Below, piece after piece: positions 3,074 to 13,434 of a DNA stretch of 64,000 nt. Position numbers and translations under genes: made by a program. The stretch comes from Bacillus sp. RO3 (GTDB lineage: Bacteria; Bacillota; Bacilli; Bacillales; Bacillaceae_B), in the NCBI RefSeq assembly GCF_012911895.1, contig NZ_JAAXCV010000028.1, forward strand, positions 241,734 to 305,733. The letters run 5' to 3'. The notes beneath the pieces are model-generated. The model did no database searches. It was not told the DNA's origin and saw only the letters and a list, made by a program, of their open reading frames with translations. How positions within the stretch are numbered: position 1 is the first letter of the stretch; every line of letters starts with the position of its first letter.

Positions 3074-4360
3074 TTATGCTACCGTTTTGCTGTTTTCAAC
3101 AAGGAATTCTACTGCTTTACGAACTTTAAGGTCCGCTTTAAGTGTATCAAGGCCGCCAAGTGCTTGTTTGATGTTGTCAGCAGACATGTTGTACTGTTCA
3201 GCCATCTTATTTACTTCTTCTTCTGCTTCTTCGTCAGTCACTTCAAGATTTTCAGCTGCTGCGATCGCTTCAAGCGTAAGGTTTGTGCGAACGCGTTTAC
3301 CAGCATCTTCATTCATTTGACCGCGAAGGTCTTCTTCTGATTGACCAGAGAATTGGAAGTAAAGATCAAGATTCATACCTTGCATTTGAAGGCGTTGTTC
3401 GAACTCTTGCATCATGCGGTCCACTTCAGCTTTAACCATTACTTCTGGGATTTCCACTTCAGCATTGTCAGAAGCTTTATTTACAAGAGTTTCGCGAACA
3501 GCTGTTTCAGCTTCGTTCTTTTTAGACTCTTGAAGGCGTTTTTCGATCTTTTCTTTCAGTTCAGCAAGCGTTTCAACTTCTTCGTCAGCATCTTTTGCGA
3601 ACTCGTCGTCAAGTGCTGGAAGTTCTTTTGCTTTGATTTCGTGTACTTTCACTTTGAATGTAGCAGGTTTACCAGCAAGTTCAGCTGCATGGTACTCTTC
3701 TGGGAAGTTCACTTCTACATCTTTCTCTTCTCCAGCTGCAACACCCACTAATTGCTCTTCGAATCCTGGGATGAATTGACCTGAACCTAATTCAAGAGAA
3801 TAGTTCTCAGCCTGTCCGCCTTCGAATGCTTCACCGTCAACGAATCCTTCGAAATCCATTGTTACAGTGTCGCCTTCTTCAGCTTTTCCTTCTTCTTTAA
3901 CAGCCAGTTCAGCTTGTTTTTCTTGAAGTGAAGTAAGTTCAGCTTCAACGTCTTCAGCCGTTACTTCTGTGTCCATATTTTCTACTTCAAGACCTTTGTA
4001 CTCGCCAAGTTTCACTTCAGGCTTCACTTGTACCTTAGCCGTGAAGATTAAGTCTTTCCCTTTTTCCATTTGCTCAACATCGATTTCAGGACGGTCGATT
4101 GGATCGATTCCTGTTTCTTCGATTGCTTTCGCATATGCTTCAGGTAAGATGAAATCTAACGCATCTTGGTAAAGTGATTCTACACCGAAACGCTTTTCGA
4201 ACATTCCACGTGGCATTTTACCTTTACGGAATCCTGGTACGTTCACTTGTTTTACAACTTTTTTGAATGCTGCGTCTAAACCTTCGTTTACTTTAGCAGC
4301 TTCTACTTCAATTGTAAGTACTCCTTGGTTTCCTTCTTGCTTTTCCCATTTTGCAGACAT
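3074..4360 (-). CDS. tig: trigger factor, ribosome-associated chaperone/peptidyl-prolyl isomerase
   Basis: Trigger factor binds the ribosomal exit tunnel and protects nascent chains. The N-terminal domain carries the ribosome-docking signature within [11 protein letters not shown]. The FKBP-type PPIase domain follows at about residues 160-245 ([16 protein letters not shown] ... [11 protein letters not shown]), then the long helical C-terminal chaperone arms rich in Glu, Lys and Ala. Its 428 residues match Bacillus Tig. The start ATG follows GGAGGGAACAGT. It is flanked by ysoA upstream and clpX downstream. Confidence 0.98.
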
Positions 4361-4520
4361 ACTGTTCCCTCCAACAATCTATAATTGATCTTAAATTTTT
4401 TACGCATAGTAGTAGATAGTCCCGTATGATTCTAGCACTATCATCGTAAATATTTGAAAAACTTTTACATTGCAACCATTACATTATAACATACAGCCAC
4501 TGTCTTTCAACAGAGAGCAC

Positions 4521-5525
4521 TTAAATATTAGGAGAGGAAATTTCCTCTAGTTCCTTCAGTTTCAATAGAATCCCTTCAGATTGTGTGTTTTCAACCTGAT
4601 CCCTCAGCTCTTCTTCAAGGATTGAATCAGCGAACATCCCAGCCGTATAGAAGGCATATACCGATGCAATATCTTTCACTTCCCCATCAAGGTGAAAGGG
4701 ATAGAGAAGAAACATGTGGCGCTTCAGCAATTCCTGTGCATGTTGAAATAGGGTAGGGTTCATTTGCATGAGGAGATCTTCCAAGGATTCTACCATTCCT
4801 GAGAAGAAATCAGATTCGAACACATCTTCCAAAGATGCAGGAGAAACCCTCTTCTCCTGACCAAACTTCTTAACTACCACCTCTTTATCCACTCCATGCT
4901 CCCTTAAAACATTCAGGACCATCGTTTGCAGAAATGGATGTGCCTCTGCATCCTTTAAGATCGATTTCAGTTCATCCATAAACGGCTGAATGTTGCGGTG
5001 AACGAGCTCGGCCGCCGTCAACGTTTGTTCTTCTAAACTCTTCCCCCTCAAAATGGAAGGCTGCTCTTCCTTAACGGGTGCTTCATCTGGCTGTGGCGAT
5101 TTCCCATTCAGTACTTTTTCACTGAACTGGAGCAGTTTCTTGAAATGCTCTTCCTTTTCGAAAGGAACTTCTTTTTCATCGAACAGTGCATGAATCGTAT
5201 CCATCACTTCCTGATGCTCGCGAAGCTGGATAAGAATCATCAAATACATATCCACTACCTCGAAATAATCACCGATGCCTTCAAGGAGCATATCTTTGCA
5301 TATGGATCTCGCTTTGTCATATTGCTTGCTTTCATATAGAGATAACACGAGTGCCGTATTGATATCAGGATTGTCCGGATCCAGTTCATAGGCCTGGATC
5401 AGGAGCTCTGAAGCTTCATGAACCTCTCCTTGTTCCAGGGCATGAACACCCTTTTCCAGGAGCCGCTCTTTTAATCCTGGAAATTGCACAATCTTCCCTT
5501 TTTCTTCCTGGTTTCCCTTTGTCAT
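4521..5525 (-). CDS. ysoA: TPR-repeat protein YsoA
   Basis: A 334-residue cytoplasmic protein whose first ~130 residues show tetratricopeptide pattern (for example AYELDPDNPDINTALVLSLYESKQYDKA), followed by an acidic helical region. TPR domains bind other proteins; the partner of YsoA is not known to me. The name rests on its length and its position directly upstream of tig. In B. subtilis leuD would follow upstream; here the next host feature is the tRNA-Arg locus, so the leu-ilv block is absent at this site. Confidence 0.8.
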   Translation of the reverse strand: MTKGNQEEKGKIVQFPGLKERLLEKGVHALEQGEVHEASELLIQAYELDPDNPDINTALVLSLYESKQYDKARSICKDMLLEGIGDYFEVVDMYLMILIQLREHQEVMDTIHALFDEKEVPFEKEEHFKKLLQFSEKVLNGKSPQPDEAPVKEEQPSILRGKSLEEQTLTAAELVHRNIQPFMDELKSILKDAEAHPFLQTMVLNVLREHGVDKEVVVKKFGQEKRVSPASLEDVFESDFFSGMVESLEDLLMQMNPTLFQHAQELLKRHMFLLYPFHLDGEVKDIASVYAFYTAGMFADSILEEELRDQVENTQSEGILLKLKELEEISSPNI

Positions 5526-5628: not shown

Positions 5629-5668
5629 TATGGCGTCCCAGGAGAGATTCGAACTCCCGACCGACGGC
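5629..5668 (-). repeat. attachment repeat, outer copy (displaced tRNA 3' end)
   Basis: These 40 bp are identical to 13356-13395 and correspond to the 3' part of the tRNA-Arg gene from the anticodon stem to the CCA end. Sequence beyond 5668 no longer continues the tRNA. This is the left junction of an element integrated by site-specific recombination. Confidence 0.95.
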
Positions 5669-6400: not shown

Positions 6401-6440
6401 CGTAAACATAGGCGCAGATTGGTACGGATGTTGGTGAAAA
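6401..6440 (-). promoter_or_regulatory. candidate element-sigma promoter P3 (HNH gene)
   Basis: On the minus strand a T-rich stretch ending in CCA (6432-6434) is followed by exactly 15 nt and then TGCGCCTATG-TTTACG. The same architecture precedes two other element units. It lies 52 nt upstream of the chosen HNH start and just downstream of the previous unit's terminator. Sigma dependence is inferred. Confidence 0.6.
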
Positions 6441-6460
6441 AGAAATATCGTTTTTTGCAA

Positions 6461-6486
6461 AAAAAGAGCAACGCCGTTAAGCGCTA
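6461..6486 (-). terminator. terminator of the 7662-6510 operon
   Basis: On the minus strand AGTAGCGC and GCGTTGCT form an 8-bp stem (two G-U pairs) around a 6-nt loop, followed by CTTTTTTT. It separates the three-gene operon from the HNH gene. Confidence 0.85.
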
Positions 6487-6509
6487 CTCCTATACCCTTA
6501 TCTTACTTC

Positions 6510-6695
6510 CTATTCATTAGCTCCTGTTACTTGTCTCTTAGCTACTGCATAAAGTGTTAAGTTATCTGTGCTAGAGTTCATCGCTGCTTGTTGCTTAATC
6601 GCTTCCAGTTCGCTAGCCGTAATCCTTTCGCCACTAAGTAGCTTCCGCTTGATTCCTTCGACCTGTATCCGTAACTCCTTATATCCAGTCATCAT
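6510..6695 (-). CDS. small protein of unknown function (61 aa)
   Basis: A 61-residue hydrophilic, helix-prone protein (GYKELRIQVEGIKRKLLSG ...) with no family I recognise. Its start overlaps the upstream gene's stop as ATGA, which implies translational coupling, and GGGAGC lies upstream at good spacing. It is the last gene of a three-gene operon behind the candidate promoter P2 and ends at a clear terminator. Confidence 0.7.
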   Translation of the reverse strand: MMTGYKELRIQVEGIKRKLLSGERITASELEAIKQQAAMNSSTDNLTLYAVAKRQVTGANE

Positions 6696-7306
6696 TTATT
6701 TGCTCCCTTAACACTGTTAGGCAGCTCTCCACGTTGAAGAGTTTGTAGGTCGTAGCTTGTTATGCAGGCTTTTCCCATTGCACTCTGCGTCCCAAATCCC
6801 ACGCTGTAAGGGATAGAGTAACCGCCATAACGGGGATTTACTGTATTAAATGCTTTCCTTGCTTCGTCTTCGAAGAACTTAATACGGCGCTGAATTTCGA
6901 TAAACTGCTTAAGATACTCGATTTTAATCTTTTCTAACTTATCGACTTCTGGATCAATCTGACCGTTTTGGAACTTCCTTTGATACTCCTTCAGTCCGAT
7001 CCGTAAATCTTCTATTGTAATACCGTTACTATTAATTGTCCGAGCTACTCTCTGTATTTCGCGTGCATGTTCTAAGTCCGCAATTGCAGCCGATTTCTCT
7101 TTCTTAATCTTCGCTAACTCTCGACGATTGTCTGTGCCCTCTGCTACAACCTCCCTTACCGCTTCGTTATAGCGATATTCTAGAGCTTTAACTAGCGCCT
7201 CTGCTACGTTAACCTTCTCCGCATAATTCTGCTGTACCTGTAAACCCTGCTGTCTTTCTTCGTTGTACTTTTCGAGTAGACCGTATTTTGGTAGATTGTT
7301 CTTCAT
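6692..7306 (-). CDS. coiled-coil protein of unknown function (204 aa)
   Basis: A 204-residue soluble protein. Residues ~15-155 are strongly charged and helical with heptad-like spacing (coiled coil). The last ~45 residues differ, being rich in Gly, Tyr and Ser (RYGGYSIPYSVGFGTQS). No signal peptide or membrane segment is visible. The start ATG follows GGGAGCGAATTCAT, 18 bp after the previous gene, and the stop overlaps the next start. I recognise no family; a scaffold or structural role is possible but unsupported. Confidence 0.78.
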   Translation of the reverse strand: MKNNLPKYGLLEKYNEERQQGLQVQQNYAEKVNVAEALVKALEYRYNEAVREVVAEGTDNRRELAKIKKEKSAAIADLEHAREIQRVARTINSNGITIEDLRIGLKEYQRKFQNGQIDPEVDKLEKIKIEYLKQFIEIQRRIKFFEDEARKAFNTVNPRYGGYSIPYSVGFGTQSAMGKACITSYDLQTLQRGELPNSVKGANK

Positions 7307-7323
7307 ATGAATTCGCTCCCTTT

Positions 7324-7662
7324 TTATTTTGACTGTTGGCTCGTAATTAGCATTGTTCTCGGTTGATTCTTCGGTGTCTCGTCTATTATTTCGGTATTGA
7401 GGTATAGTTCGTGCTCTACGCTAGAAGCTTGCATGTCATATAGAGAGTAAACCTTCTCTAACTCGTTACTTTTAGCGTCTAATACCTCAACGGTATTTCC
7501 TTCTTTATCTTCGAAGTTAATTAATATTGTAGCGCTGCGGATATTTAGAGGCTTTTTCTCGTATGCTGCTCCGTTTTCGTCGATAAGCTGTCGAAGAATC
7601 TCCGTGAATGTTTTAGTGTCACTTCCTTTTCCATTAACTTGATTGTAAATCTTGATAATCAT
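7324..7662 (-). CDS. hypothetical protein, first gene of the P2 operon (112 aa)
   Basis: A 112-residue protein with alternating hydrophobic residues suggesting beta structure (MIIKIYNQVNG ... SATILINFEDKEGNTVEVLDA) and a polar tail. No recognised family. The start ATG is preceded by AGGGGAGCTAAAAA. It heads an operon with the coiled-coil and 61-residue genes, and the bipartite element promoter P2 lies 59 nt upstream of the start. Confidence 0.75.
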   Translation of the reverse strand: MIIKIYNQVNGKGSDTKTFTEILRQLIDENGAAYEKKPLNIRSATILINFEDKEGNTVEVLDAKSNELEKVYSLYDMQASSVEHELYLNTEIIDETPKNQPRTMLITSQQSK

Positions 7663-7704
7663 TTTTTAGCTCCCCTATTATTTTGTTAAAGCATTTACGC
7701 CTTA

Positions 7705-7748
7705 CAATAACCATAGGCGCAGTTACTTTTAAGCTTTGGTTTAAAATA
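7705..7748 (-). promoter_or_regulatory. candidate element-sigma promoter P2
   Basis: Minus strand: TTTTAAACCA, 15 nt, then TGCGCCTATGGTTATTG. Both blocks and the spacer match P1 and P3. It stands upstream of the 7662-6510 operon in a 200-bp gap without genes. Confidence 0.6.
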
Positions 7749-7866
7749 ATATTTTTTATAAAAAAGTGTGCGAAGCCTATCTAAACTAACGAATTAAATA
7801 ACGTATTGGAGCGGGAAAAAGCTCTAAGAGAAGGCGTAGAAGTATAAGTACGGTTAATATAGTAGA

Positions 7867-8583
7867 TTAATTTTTATCGTCGAACGCAGCTAATTTAATC
7901 TTTAGCCTTTTAAATAATCTAGTTACTTCCTGATGGTGTTTAAGCCCTATCGCCCTTGCTAATTCCACTTTGGATAAATCAGGATTATGGAACTTCACCA
8001 GTAATAACTCTCTCTCTTGCTTTGTTAAACTAGAGACGGTTAGCATGCGTGTCACTAGTATGCTATTAAGCGCACTGCCTTCGACATCTACTTGTGCATC
8101 TGGTAAATAATCGGCAGCTTCCTCTTTTAATCGTCGAACTTTAAGTTCGAAAGCGCCCTGATGTGTCGTTGTCTGCTTCCTTATAAGGTCGATACCCCTG
8201 CGCTTAAGTATGAGTAAGAGCGTTTCATAGAAATAGAACTCGCCATAATGACTGTAGTTATCGCATAACTTCCATGCTTCCTCGAAATAGATACTCTCGA
8301 AGTCTGCTGCGCTTAGACGGCTATTATTCCAGCGTGCACCTGTTGCCCTTGCCTTACCCTTGATCGTCAAGCTGAGCATTTTTAAGATCGTTTCTAAGTG
8401 TCTTTCCTTTTTCGCGGTATCTAGCTCTAAGGCATAACGCTCCCATAGTTTCTCGATTTGTAGAACGTAATCTATAGAGGTACAATTTTTGTATCTCCGC
8501 TTTAGCCCCTCTAGCTTTGTTACAGTTTTCGACTTGGTACTTTCCTTCTTGTTGATTTCGACTAGACTAAATATTTTTGTCAT
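7867..8583 (-). CDS. sigma-70-family RNA polymerase sigma factor of the element
   Basis: A 238-residue protein with two regions like small sigma factors. Residues ~91-140 resemble region 2 (SAADFESIYFEEAWKL, then FYFYETLLLILKRRGIDLIRKQ, the spacing seen where region 2 melts the -10 element). Residues ~183-233 resemble the region 4 helix-turn-helix (LTKQERELLLVKF ... LSKVELARAIGLKH ... VTRLFKRLK). The first ~90 residues are an extra basic, helical N-terminus. The start ATG follows AAGGGGGTATACGC. The gene carries the bipartite motif upstream, which would mean self-activation. Known parallels are sigma-like factors of B. subtilis prophage PBSX (Xpf) and plasmid pBS32 (SigN). A non-sigma HTH regulator is the alternative. 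Confidence 0.75.
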   Translation of the reverse strand: MTKIFSLVEINKKESTKSKTVTKLEGLKRRYKNCTSIDYVLQIEKLWERYALELDTAKKERHLETILKMLSLTIKGKARATGARWNNSRLSAADFESIYFEEAWKLCDNYSHYGEFYFYETLLLILKRRGIDLIRKQTTTHQGAFELKVRRLKEEAADYLPDAQVDVEGSALNSILVTRMLTVSSLTKQERELLLVKFHNPDLSKVELARAIGLKHHQEVTRLFKRLKIKLAAFDDKN

Positions 8584-8597
8584 GCGTATACCCCCTT

Positions 8598-8637
8598 CAA
8601 TAAGATGGGCGCACTTCGCACATATTAATGGCGAAAA
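8598..8637 (-). promoter_or_regulatory. candidate element-sigma promoter P1 (autoregulatory)
   Basis: Minus strand: TTTTCGCCA, 15 nt, then TGCGCCCATC-TTATTG, ending about 14 nt before the sigma gene start. Same blocks and same spacer as P2 and P3. Confidence 0.62.
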
Positions 8638-8708
8638 GACAAAATAATAACCACGCTACTAGTAGCTTACGGCTAGATAATGGTATAGCTACGAAAACTA
8701 CCACAAAC

Positions 8709-8743
8709 GAAAAAAAGCCCCTACGCTTTTTTGCGTAAGGGCT
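8709..8743 (-). terminator. terminator after the broken gene
   Basis: On the minus strand AGCCCTTACGC pairs with GCGTAGGGGCT (one wobble) around a short A-rich loop and is followed by seven Ts. It closes the 9458-8747 unit. Confidence 0.9.
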
Positions 8744-8746
8744 TAT

Positions 8747-9595: not shown

Positions 9596-9617
9596 CCCCC
9601 CTACCTTGGGGGGGGGG
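9596..9617. repeat. C6-loop-G10 homopolymer hairpin
   Basis: Six Cs, a 6-nt spacer and ten Gs form a G:C-only inverted repeat in an AT-rich non-coding stretch. A 10-base G run is prone to slippage during replication. Confidence 0.8.
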
Positions 9618-9948: not shown

Positions 9949-10530
9949 TTACTTTAACCCCTCACGTTCTAATAATCTATATAGTGTACCTGTACCGATC
10001 GATAGCGTCTTCGTTATATATCGCACTGTTTTCCCTTCCTTATACCATTCTATCGCCTGTGTCGCCTTCTCAGCTTTCTTACCACCTTCTACCACTTCTA
10101 ACTTGCGTCCTTTAAACTTGCCCTCTTTCTTCGCAATTTCGATTCCTTCTCTTTGCCGCTTCAATGTTAGCCCTCGCTCTAGCTGCGCAAGGCTACCGAA
10201 TATATTAAGTAAAAACTCGTTCATAGGATTGTCGCTCGTAGTATCTAGCCATGCCTCACCTAATGATTTAAGGCTAGCCCCTTTCTCCTTAATGCGTTCT
10301 ACTATGTCGATAAGGTCTTTTACCGACCGAGAGAGGCGGCTAATTTCGTGGACAATAACTACATCCCCCTCTTCTAGTTCCGCAAGCATGTGCTGTAACT
10401 GAGGTCTTTCAGTATTCTTACCGCTTACTTTCTCTTCATAAAACACTTCGCAGCCTGCCGTTTTTAACGCCTTCTTTTGTCTCGCTGTGTTCTGTCCTTC
10501 GCTACTTACCCTTATGTATGCCTTAATCAC
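9949..10530 (-). CDS. serine recombinase of the resolvase/invertase family
   Basis: A 193-residue small serine recombinase. The N-terminal catalytic domain opens with AYIRVSSEGQN (nucleophile probably Ser9), continues with the YEEKVSGKNTERPQL stretch and VIVHEISRLSRSVKDL, and ends in the long dimer helix FGSLAQLERGLTLKRQREGI. A C-terminal HTH (TVRYITKTLSIGTGTLYRLL) reads the DNA site. Such enzymes resolve dimers or invert segments. The start is GTG behind GGGGGTGG. A sigma-A-like promoter overlaps two CGGTAAC boxes upstream, suggesting that the enzyme or a repressor controls its own gene. Confidence 0.93.
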   Translation of the reverse strand: MIKAYIRVSSEGQNTARQKKALKTAGCEVFYEEKVSGKNTERPQLQHMLAELEEGDVVIVHEISRLSRSVKDLIDIVERIKEKGASLKSLGEAWLDTTSDNPMNEFLLNIFGSLAQLERGLTLKRQREGIEIAKKEGKFKGRKLEVVEGGKKAEKATQAIEWYKEGKTVRYITKTLSIGTGTLYRLLEREGLK

Positions 10531-12210: not shown

Positions 12211-13215
12211 CTATAAATACTTTCGAAGATTATCCGCAACCTCTTCTTTGTCTACATGAAGATACTGGGTAGTTACCGCCAGATTACTGTGTCCTAACGC
12301 TCTAGATATGTCTGTGATATGTGCTCCCTTATTTAATAAAGATTTAGCGAACCCTCGACGTAAAGCGTGCGGATTAATATTTTTTAAACCGTATTCTTTA
12401 GCATACTTATTTAATCTCTTTTGGATATTGTTATGCGACTGCCCTTTCGCTACCTTGCTACCTTGCTTTGTTATGAACACATATTCGTTACTTACCTTAT
12501 ATTCTTCCCTTATTGCGCTATTCTGATTAACTAAAACGGTTAACAGGCGTCTTAACTTATCATCAAATGGCAATAGTATGTCTTTATGATTCTTTAAAAT
12601 ACCGCCATCTAGTTGTAGGAGGTTATTCTCAAAGTCTATATGCCTGTTTTCAAGGTGTACTAGAGTATTTATTCGAATACCTGTCTTATACATCAGAAGG
12701 GCTGCTGTAGCGTCTCGTAGCTGTACATAGTCATTTAGATCAAGAACAGATAGTAAGACCTGTATCTCCCTGTCTGTTGCGCCTTCCTTTACTTTTGTAT
12801 CGACTCTAATATTCACTTTTCCCCAGAACTTAATTGTAACCCATCCATTATCAAAGCAACGAGAAAGAAAAGCCTTTAGACACTTCAAACGAGTTAATTT
12901 TGTTTGTGCGGATACATTCATACTTGATAGCCATTCATAAAGAGTATCTGAGGTTATATCATCAACGTAAGAAATACGCATACTTTCTGCAAATTGTTTA
13001 ACATAAACATTATAGTCACTAATAGTACGCGGTCTATTGCCACTTATCGTCATTTGGCGTGTAATGGTAGCTAACGCTTGTTCTAATGTAATGCGATTTT
13101 CATTTAAAGCTGCTGCGCTTCTATTCTTCTTTGGACTTCTATCGGGGAGCTTACCGTCTGAAAACAGATCACTAAAATCTTCACTAACCGTAAGTATACT
13201 TTTTTTCTTCGTCAT
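12211..13215 (-). CDS. tyrosine recombinase (integrase) of the element
   Basis: A 334-residue phage-type integrase. The N-terminal SAM-like core-binding domain spans about residues 40-125. The catalytic domain shows Arg181 (MYKTGIRINTL), the HxxR pair His283/Arg286 (PHALRRGFA), His309 (LGHSN) and the nucleophile Tyr318 (TTQYLH). The first 38 residues are a polar tail that could bind arm sites. GGAGG precedes the ATG. It lies directly next to the tRNA-Arg attachment site and should integrate and excise the element by recombining the 40-bp repeats. Confidence 0.96.
   Translation of the reverse strand: MTKKKSILTVSEDFSDLFSDGKLPDRSPKKNRSAAALNENRITLEQALATITRQMTISGNRPRTISDYNVYVKQFAESMRISYVDDITSDTLYEWLSSMNVSAQTKLTRLKCLKAFLSRCFDNGWVTIKFWGKVNIRVDTKVKEGATDREIQVLLSVLDLNDYVQLRDATAALLMYKTGIRINTLVHLENRHIDFENNLLQLDGGILKNHKDILLPFDDKLRRLLTVLVNQNSAIREEYKVSNEYVFITKQGSKVAKGQSHNNIQKRLNKYAKEYGLKNINPHALRRGFAKSLLNKGAHITDISRALGHSNLAVTTQYLHVDKEEVADNLRKYL

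Positions 13216-13355: not shown

Positions 13356-13434
<79 letters not shown>

Follow-up and report, generated by a model that had tools for sequence, protein, structure and literature searches.

A tRNA-borne element with three copies of a two-part motif

The stretch of DNA analysed here, referred to as the window, comprises 64,000 nucleotides (nt) of Bacillus sp. RO3 (contig NZ_JAAXCV010000028.1, positions 241,734 to 305,733 of the forward strand) and contains a small integrative element inserted in a tRNA-Arg gene. The element encodes a 238-amino-acid (aa) protein divergently related to sigma-70-type factors, and three copies of a two-part sequence motif, designated P1, P2 and P3, lie before the gene for this protein, before an operon and before a gene for an HNH endonuclease (Table 1). 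A preliminary description of the window, made from the sequence alone, had proposed that these parts form a self-activating sigma regulon carried by a 7.7-kb tRNA-borne element. The size of the element was borne out. It is bounded by a perfect 40-bp direct repeat of the tRNA-Arg 3′ end, and in a genome of the same species (G024) both flanks join at this repeat with 99.7% identity, which constitutes an empty site. As the flanks meet at the repeat there, the insertion amounts to 7,727 bp.

Table 1. Positions in the window of the element's ends, genes, predicted promoter motifs and other features.
Feature	Position	Strand	Basis
P1, predicted autoregulatory promoter motif before sigma gene	8605-8631	-	pattern scan, relatives
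P2, predicted sigma-dependent promoter motif before operon	7713-7739	-	pattern scan, relatives
P3, predicted sigma-dependent promoter motif before HNH gene	6408-6434	-	pattern scan, relatives
238-aa divergent sigma-70-type factor, regions 2 and 4	7867..8583	-	
112-aa orphan frame, first after P2 in window element only	7324..7662	-	
204-aa gene of P2 operon	6692..7306	-	76-78% identical in L006/L007
61-aa gene of P2 operon	6510..6695	-	82-84% identical in L006/L007
HNH endonuclease, C-terminal helix-turn-helix (HTH), downstream of P3	5855..6363	-	HNH_3 E 4.5e-8; phrog_59 E 1.8e-32
Small serine recombinase (resolvase/invertase type)	9949..10530	-	PF00239 E 7.9e-41; 92% identical in L006/L007
Tyrosine integrase	12211..13215	-	PF00589 E 4.5e-31; 70% identical in L006/L007
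attL, 40-bp tRNA-Arg 3′-end copy, distal element end	5629..5668	.	repeat with 13356-13395; junction matches G024 empty site
attR, 40-bp repeat within tRNA-Arg(TCT) gene 13358-13434	13356..13395	.	
Terminator-like hairpin upstream of sigma gene	8715..8744	-	hairpin scan
Terminator-like hairpin between P2 operon and P3	6464..6491	-	hairpin scan
Conserved noncoding block between sigma gene and P2	7760..7824	-	same block in L008, L009, L021

A scan of the window for CCA-N15-TGCGCCYAT returned three matches, all on the minus strand, at the coordinates given in the preliminary description and each with a spacer of exactly 15 nt. Dinucleotide shuffles of the window gave a mean of 0.01 matches, and none of 100 shuffles held three; TGCGCCYAT alone, with no mismatch allowed, occurs in the window at exactly P1, P2 and P3. 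The preliminary description had named random matches elsewhere in the genome as a danger to its proposal, and these are few: the whole 4.22-Mb genome holds four matches, the fourth (C27:58805) lying antisense within a 320-aa coding frame. Across the order, 48 of 397 genomes contain a match to the TGCGCCTAT form of the motif, mostly a single one, and a reversed control pattern gave a match rate that, judged by eye, is similar, so that the background matches across the order can be put down to chance. In genomes G388 and G406 the sole TGCGCCTAT-form match is the P3 site inside the element.

The 3′ end of P1 stands 21 nt upstream of the ATG of the sigma gene, the spacers and flanks of the three sites differ from one another, and the leaders after P1 and P3 both have G-rich ribosome-binding stretches. 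Some details of the preliminary description had to be revised. The T-rich block before CCA holds as a tendency and not as a fixed feature, while conservation in relatives was not seen for the TTA-like block said to follow the motif. The sites do precede the sigma gene, the operon and the HNH gene, but the HNH frame drawn from TTG 6460 runs through P3, and we place its start at ATG 6363 (MNARRYLRLL), which is also found in the related loci L006 and L007. The operon described as having three genes retains its 204-aa and 61-aa genes; the first, of 112 aa, is an orphan whose product found no homologue but itself in a database search and has no match in L006/L007. For the 204-aa protein the database search returned four matches, the first being itself, and for neither protein did family and homologue searches yield a function.

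Directly upstream of P1 we also observed a perfect 12-bp palindrome, GCTACTAGTAGC (8655..8666), which is a possible candidate operator.

Conservation of the motif in close relatives

The preliminary description had suggested aligning the same upstream regions in related elements, and in this comparison all four of the close relatives were found to have retained the site upstream of the sigma gene. L006 (Bacillus sp. ISL-45) and L007 (Mesobacillus selenatarsenatis) have sigma proteins 77-78% identical to that of the window and use the same tRNA-Arg type. In both, P1, P2 and P3 have counterparts in front of the corresponding genes, located at -48, +846 and +1798/+1800 from the sigma start. The spacers of P1 and P3 in these two loci differ from those of the window, with both blocks and the 15-nt distance kept and with the first base of TGCGCC changed in P1. 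At P2, which in L006/L007 lies directly before the 204-aa gene, the block is an AGCGCC variant and the spacer is identical to that of the window, so the conservation of P2 is weaker evidence. The site before the sigma gene is also kept in L008 (sigma 65% identical) and L009 (54%). L008 has a second site with one mismatch and no obvious gene behind it, and no second site was found in L009. In the window and in all four relatives of at least 54% identity, CCA stands 48-50 nt before the sigma start, that of L009 being taken as TTG 7859.

The gene content of L008 and L009 bears on what reads the motif. In tblastn searches with the window genes (E<=1e-3), the sigma protein and the serine recombinase were matched in both loci, the latter at 33% identity in L008 and at 40% in L009. 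L008 gave no other match, and L009 further matched an integrase (24% identical) and two small proteins of unknown function. The HNH, 204-aa and 61-aa genes were found in neither locus, although in L008 the contig ends 3.5 kb before the sigma gene and further genes may be missing. Because the site is kept without matches to these genes, the comparison points to the sigma protein as the probable reader of the motif.

A profile built exclusively from five relatives' sites, with the spacer masked, gives its three highest scores in the window to P2 (28.8), P3 (23.5) and P1 (14.4), followed by a score of 14.1. In the reverse scan the top hits were the three sites of L006, the three of L007, the two of L008 and the one of L009. 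Ten more distant loci gave top hits of at most 15.0 except for L025, a locus with no established motif, in which a hit of 19.3, as high as true L006 sites, lies far from the sigma gene. Two-mismatch sites in L006/L007 (near 8046 and 12631) were considered as further promoters and left out.

Sigma-factor similarity of the 238-aa protein

Sigma-domain similarity had been named as one of the checks on the regulon proposal, and it was found by profile comparison, in the predicted structure and through a bridge to SigN of plasmid pBS32. In profile comparison the protein matches sigma-70-type factors with 94.6% (E 7e-8) over regions 2 and 4. The predicted structure has the region 2 fold and the region 4 HTH, joined by a short linker, and region 3 was not seen in the model; regions 2 and 4 align with host sigma factors. 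More distant homologues were assessed by profile scans and alignments only. A 14-member family profile, run against the pBS32 frames of at least 60 aa, has SigN as its best match (E 1.4e-10). The value becomes 1.6e-9 when L050 is left out, 0.009 with nine rows and 0.8 with six (Z set to 700), and the narrow profile A1 gave no significant match to SigN. A search of PDB sequences with the family profile returned six matches of E 0.32 to 0.4, which we took as chance. Judged from sequence and model, the protein is a divergent relative of sigma-70-type factors and would presumably function in initiation.

Other motifs in distant lineages

More distant members of the family have different motifs at the same place. 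In L021, whose sigma protein is about 46% identical, TTGTCTTT-N13-TTGCAAGT occurs twice, ahead of the sigma gene and again ahead of the next one, an agreement reached by none of 1000 shuffles; one further match exists in the genome of L021, and one match with N12 in that of the window. L022, L023 and L024 (30, 31 and 26% identical by tblastn) have GTGACAAA-N13-CGAATATA before the sigma gene (0 or 1 of 1000 in the shuffle tests), and this pattern occurs in 3 of 397 genomes, namely the hosts of L022-L024, each time before the sigma homologue. These distant motifs were first spotted by eye, and the shuffles test their agreement, not their discovery. The bipartite motifs showed up in fixed-spacing scans, but not when the sigma upstream regions were compared without gaps, in stretches of 32 nt, with the remainder of each locus. 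In all three motif types the distance from the start of one block to the start of the other comes to about 21 nt, provided that NNNCCANN is taken as the -35 block of the window, a reading adopted post hoc. From these comparisons the family appears to keep its architecture while the promoter sequence changes between lineages.

An integrase or serine-recombinase match was found in 10 of 12 chromosomal relatives (14-21 kb searched), L050 is plasmid-borne and has an annotated recombinase close by, and five Paenibacillus plasmid records encode proteins 27-28% identical to the sigma protein, the same five being hit by the P0022 query. Searches of viral contigs gave 135 pattern matches to the sigma protein, none confirmed as a relative, and phage records gave no match. 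We slightly favour the view that this is a Bacillales family dispersed over plasmids and small integrative elements, each of its lineages having a promoter code of its own that differs from the others and keeps the same spacing in front of the sigma gene. With a similarly modest leaning, we suggest that the codes CCA/TGCGCCTAT, TTGTCTTT/TTGCAAGT and GTGACAAA/CGAATATA belong to orthogonal sigma-promoter pairs evolved by selfish elements, which would thereby insulate their switch from the host and from sister elements.

In L022, L023 and L024 the palindrome TAGGTGNNNCACCTA, or one close to it, was observed shortly after the predicted -10 CGAATATA and before the sigma gene; it resembles a repressor operator.

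The predicted regulon and alternative explanations

We consider it likely that the sigma-like protein guides the RNA polymerase of the host to a two-part promoter of its own, by which it would amplify its own synthesis and activate the operon and the HNH gene at the same time. We infer that P1, P2 and P3 function as promoters with this protein as their reader, that positive feedback results, and that they are not recognised by sigma-A of the host. By analogy with SigN, a low level of the sigma factor made from another promoter could start the loop; the factor would bind core polymerase and read P1, giving positive feedback on its own gene, as well as P2, driving the 204-aa and 61-aa genes (here with the orphan 112-aa frame in front), and P3, driving the HNH gene, so that all would be switched on together. 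Excision, transfer and interference with other elements are candidate purposes of such a regulon. The self-activating sigma regulon first proposed for the window is supported by the sigma similarity, the scarcity of random matches, the conserved site before the sigma gene and the different bipartite motifs that further lineages of the family have in this position. Some observations weigh against it: no motif was established in 6 of 15 loci (L025-L028, L050, L051), and the 238-aa protein does not reach curated sigma cut-offs, its TIGR02937 score being 19.7 bits against a cut-off of 42.9 bits.

Signals of the ordinary kind were sought around the sites. The preliminary description had held that no ordinary sigma-A hexamers stand there. 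A coarse scan found no minus-strand sigma-A-like pair between the hairpin at 8744-8715 and the sigma start; around P2, a 9-of-12 pair lies slightly upstream (7774-7746) and another lies between P2 and the 112-aa start (7689-7661). A pair at 6369-6340 overlaps the HNH start and is chiefly intragenic. The scan gave 10 sites against 6.7 in shuffles. P1 comes after the terminator-like hairpin at 8744-8715 and P3 after that at 6491-6464; since such hairpins are no commoner than in shuffles (3 against 2.7), their positions alone are suggestive.

The weak pairs around P2 would suit an explanation in which sigma-A promoters do the work and the sites are operators for another DNA-binding regulator, an activator or a repressor, such as the serine recombinase or the HNH protein with its HTH. 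Operators also give bipartite conserved sites before genes, and the window, L006, L007, L008 and L009 all encode a serine recombinase. However, L008 and L009 keep the site before the sigma gene where no HNH, 204-aa or 61-aa match was found (to the contig end in L008), and the motif is not palindromic, whereas typical recombinase or dimer sites are. Together with the lack of a sigma-A-like pair upstream of the sigma start in the coarse scan and the motifs that other sigma lineages have in this position, equal in spacing but different in sequence, this makes the operator explanation improbable. The scores below curated sigma cut-offs raise the question of whether the protein is sigma-like in fold and no working sigma factor, being instead a DNA-binding or anti-sigma-like regulator acting with sigma-A. 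The NF041508 BacL2 profile, which matches 8 of 27 family members (best E 2.7e-5), fits this, a description of BacL2 function not having been found in titles and abstract starts of the open-access literature. Yet regions 2 and 4 are both predicted and align with host sigma factors, and the best pBS32 match of the broad profile is a sigma factor demonstrated as such (PMC6751061); we regard this explanation as slightly more improbable still. That the sites are duplicated leader copies or a chance repeat with no function could be argued from their number, three within one 2.2-kb stretch, and from the G-rich stretches shared by the leaders of P1 and P3, but their spacers and flanks differ, the shuffle expectation is 0.01 and the sites persist across species with sigma proteins of only 54-78% identity, and we give this explanation hardly any credence.

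Among known systems the self-activating regulon predicted here most resembles that of SigN (ZpdN), a proven sigma factor encoded by pBS32, an 84-kb plasmid of Bacillus subtilis; its 17 mapped and 2 predicted promoters (TTTACGTTT / AGATATAA) are listed in Table 2 of PMC6751061, and it has a LexA-repressed start promoter. In both cases a divergent sigma factor resembling those of the extracytoplasmic function (ECF) group sits on a mobile replicon, with its own promoter among the targets (predicted sites in the window), a regulon largely confined to the replicon, and bipartite promoters of roughly similar geometry; the family profile detects the distant homology. The system of the window differs in being a 7.7-kb tRNA-borne element with three sites of the form CCA / TGCGCCYAT. 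A simple scan for GAAC-N4-GTTC-like LexA boxes, which divergent boxes would escape, showed none near the window's sigma gene, and near the relatives' sigma genes it gave nothing convincing. Xpf of prophage PBSX (PMC10141391) is likewise a small two-domain sigma factor on a Bacillus mobile element that positively controls element genes; it is a prophage regulator, likened here by description and not by sequence. The ECF factors (group IV, TIGR02937) share with the window protein regions 2 and 4, the short linker, the absence of region 3 in the model and profile similarity, whereas the window protein falls below the curated cut-off and the neighbouring frames scanned gave no anti-sigma family match. 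The relation to BacL2 is one of weak profile similarity. No description of the window's sigma family was found in titles and abstract starts of the open-access literature. On the sequence comparisons, the window likely carries a self-activating regulon akin to that of SigN, and its most novel aspect is that the promoter motif appears to change from lineage to lineage while the spacing stays constant.

Mobile elements need to stay silent and then to be switched on as a unit. If the regulon is real, some very small integrative elements achieve this with a sigma factor of their own and a matching promoter, in the manner of SigN on the 84-kb pBS32 but using just three sites over 7.7 kb. Switches of this sort are probably under-annotated, since the close family is hardly recognised by Pfam and a sigma name is attached to only 4 of the 26 listed homologues. 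The family, with its naturally occurring related sigma factors whose promoters differ at constant spacing, would make the evolution of sigma specificity directly testable and could yield orthogonal promoter parts.

Other features of the element and its relatives

An Rfam scan of the window had the tRNA as its sole match. A run of ten G residues (9608-9617), intergenic in the element, is possibly a slippage-prone tract. In genome G005 (L091) a second 40-bp att copy lies about 180 bp from a tRNA-Arg-like stretch (1279-1318, 1459-1536) and is perhaps the trace of a former insertion.

The conserved noncoding block lies beside the sigma gene, at its 3′ end, and has the pattern TCCCG..ACGTTATTT.ATTCGTTAGTT..TCGCACACTTTT. 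Copies lie at about 4273-4338 in L008, 8627-8691 in L009 and 10536-10600 in L021, the last reversed relative to the sigma gene. The exact core was not found in L006/L007, nor was the core found in viral contigs. The block could be a recombination, replication or packaging site.

On the 3′ side of the sigma gene, L008 (4586-5598), L009 (8921-10032) and L021 (11584-12534, after two small frames) have a small Cro/C1-type HTH gene together with a gene for a 208-236-aa protein, for which no convincing family match was found in these three loci. L009 also encodes a replication-initiator-like protein (3748-4719; phrog_1835, E 4.1e-40), and L021 a protein with an abortive-infection C-terminus (7282-8091; Abi_C, E 1.1e-15).
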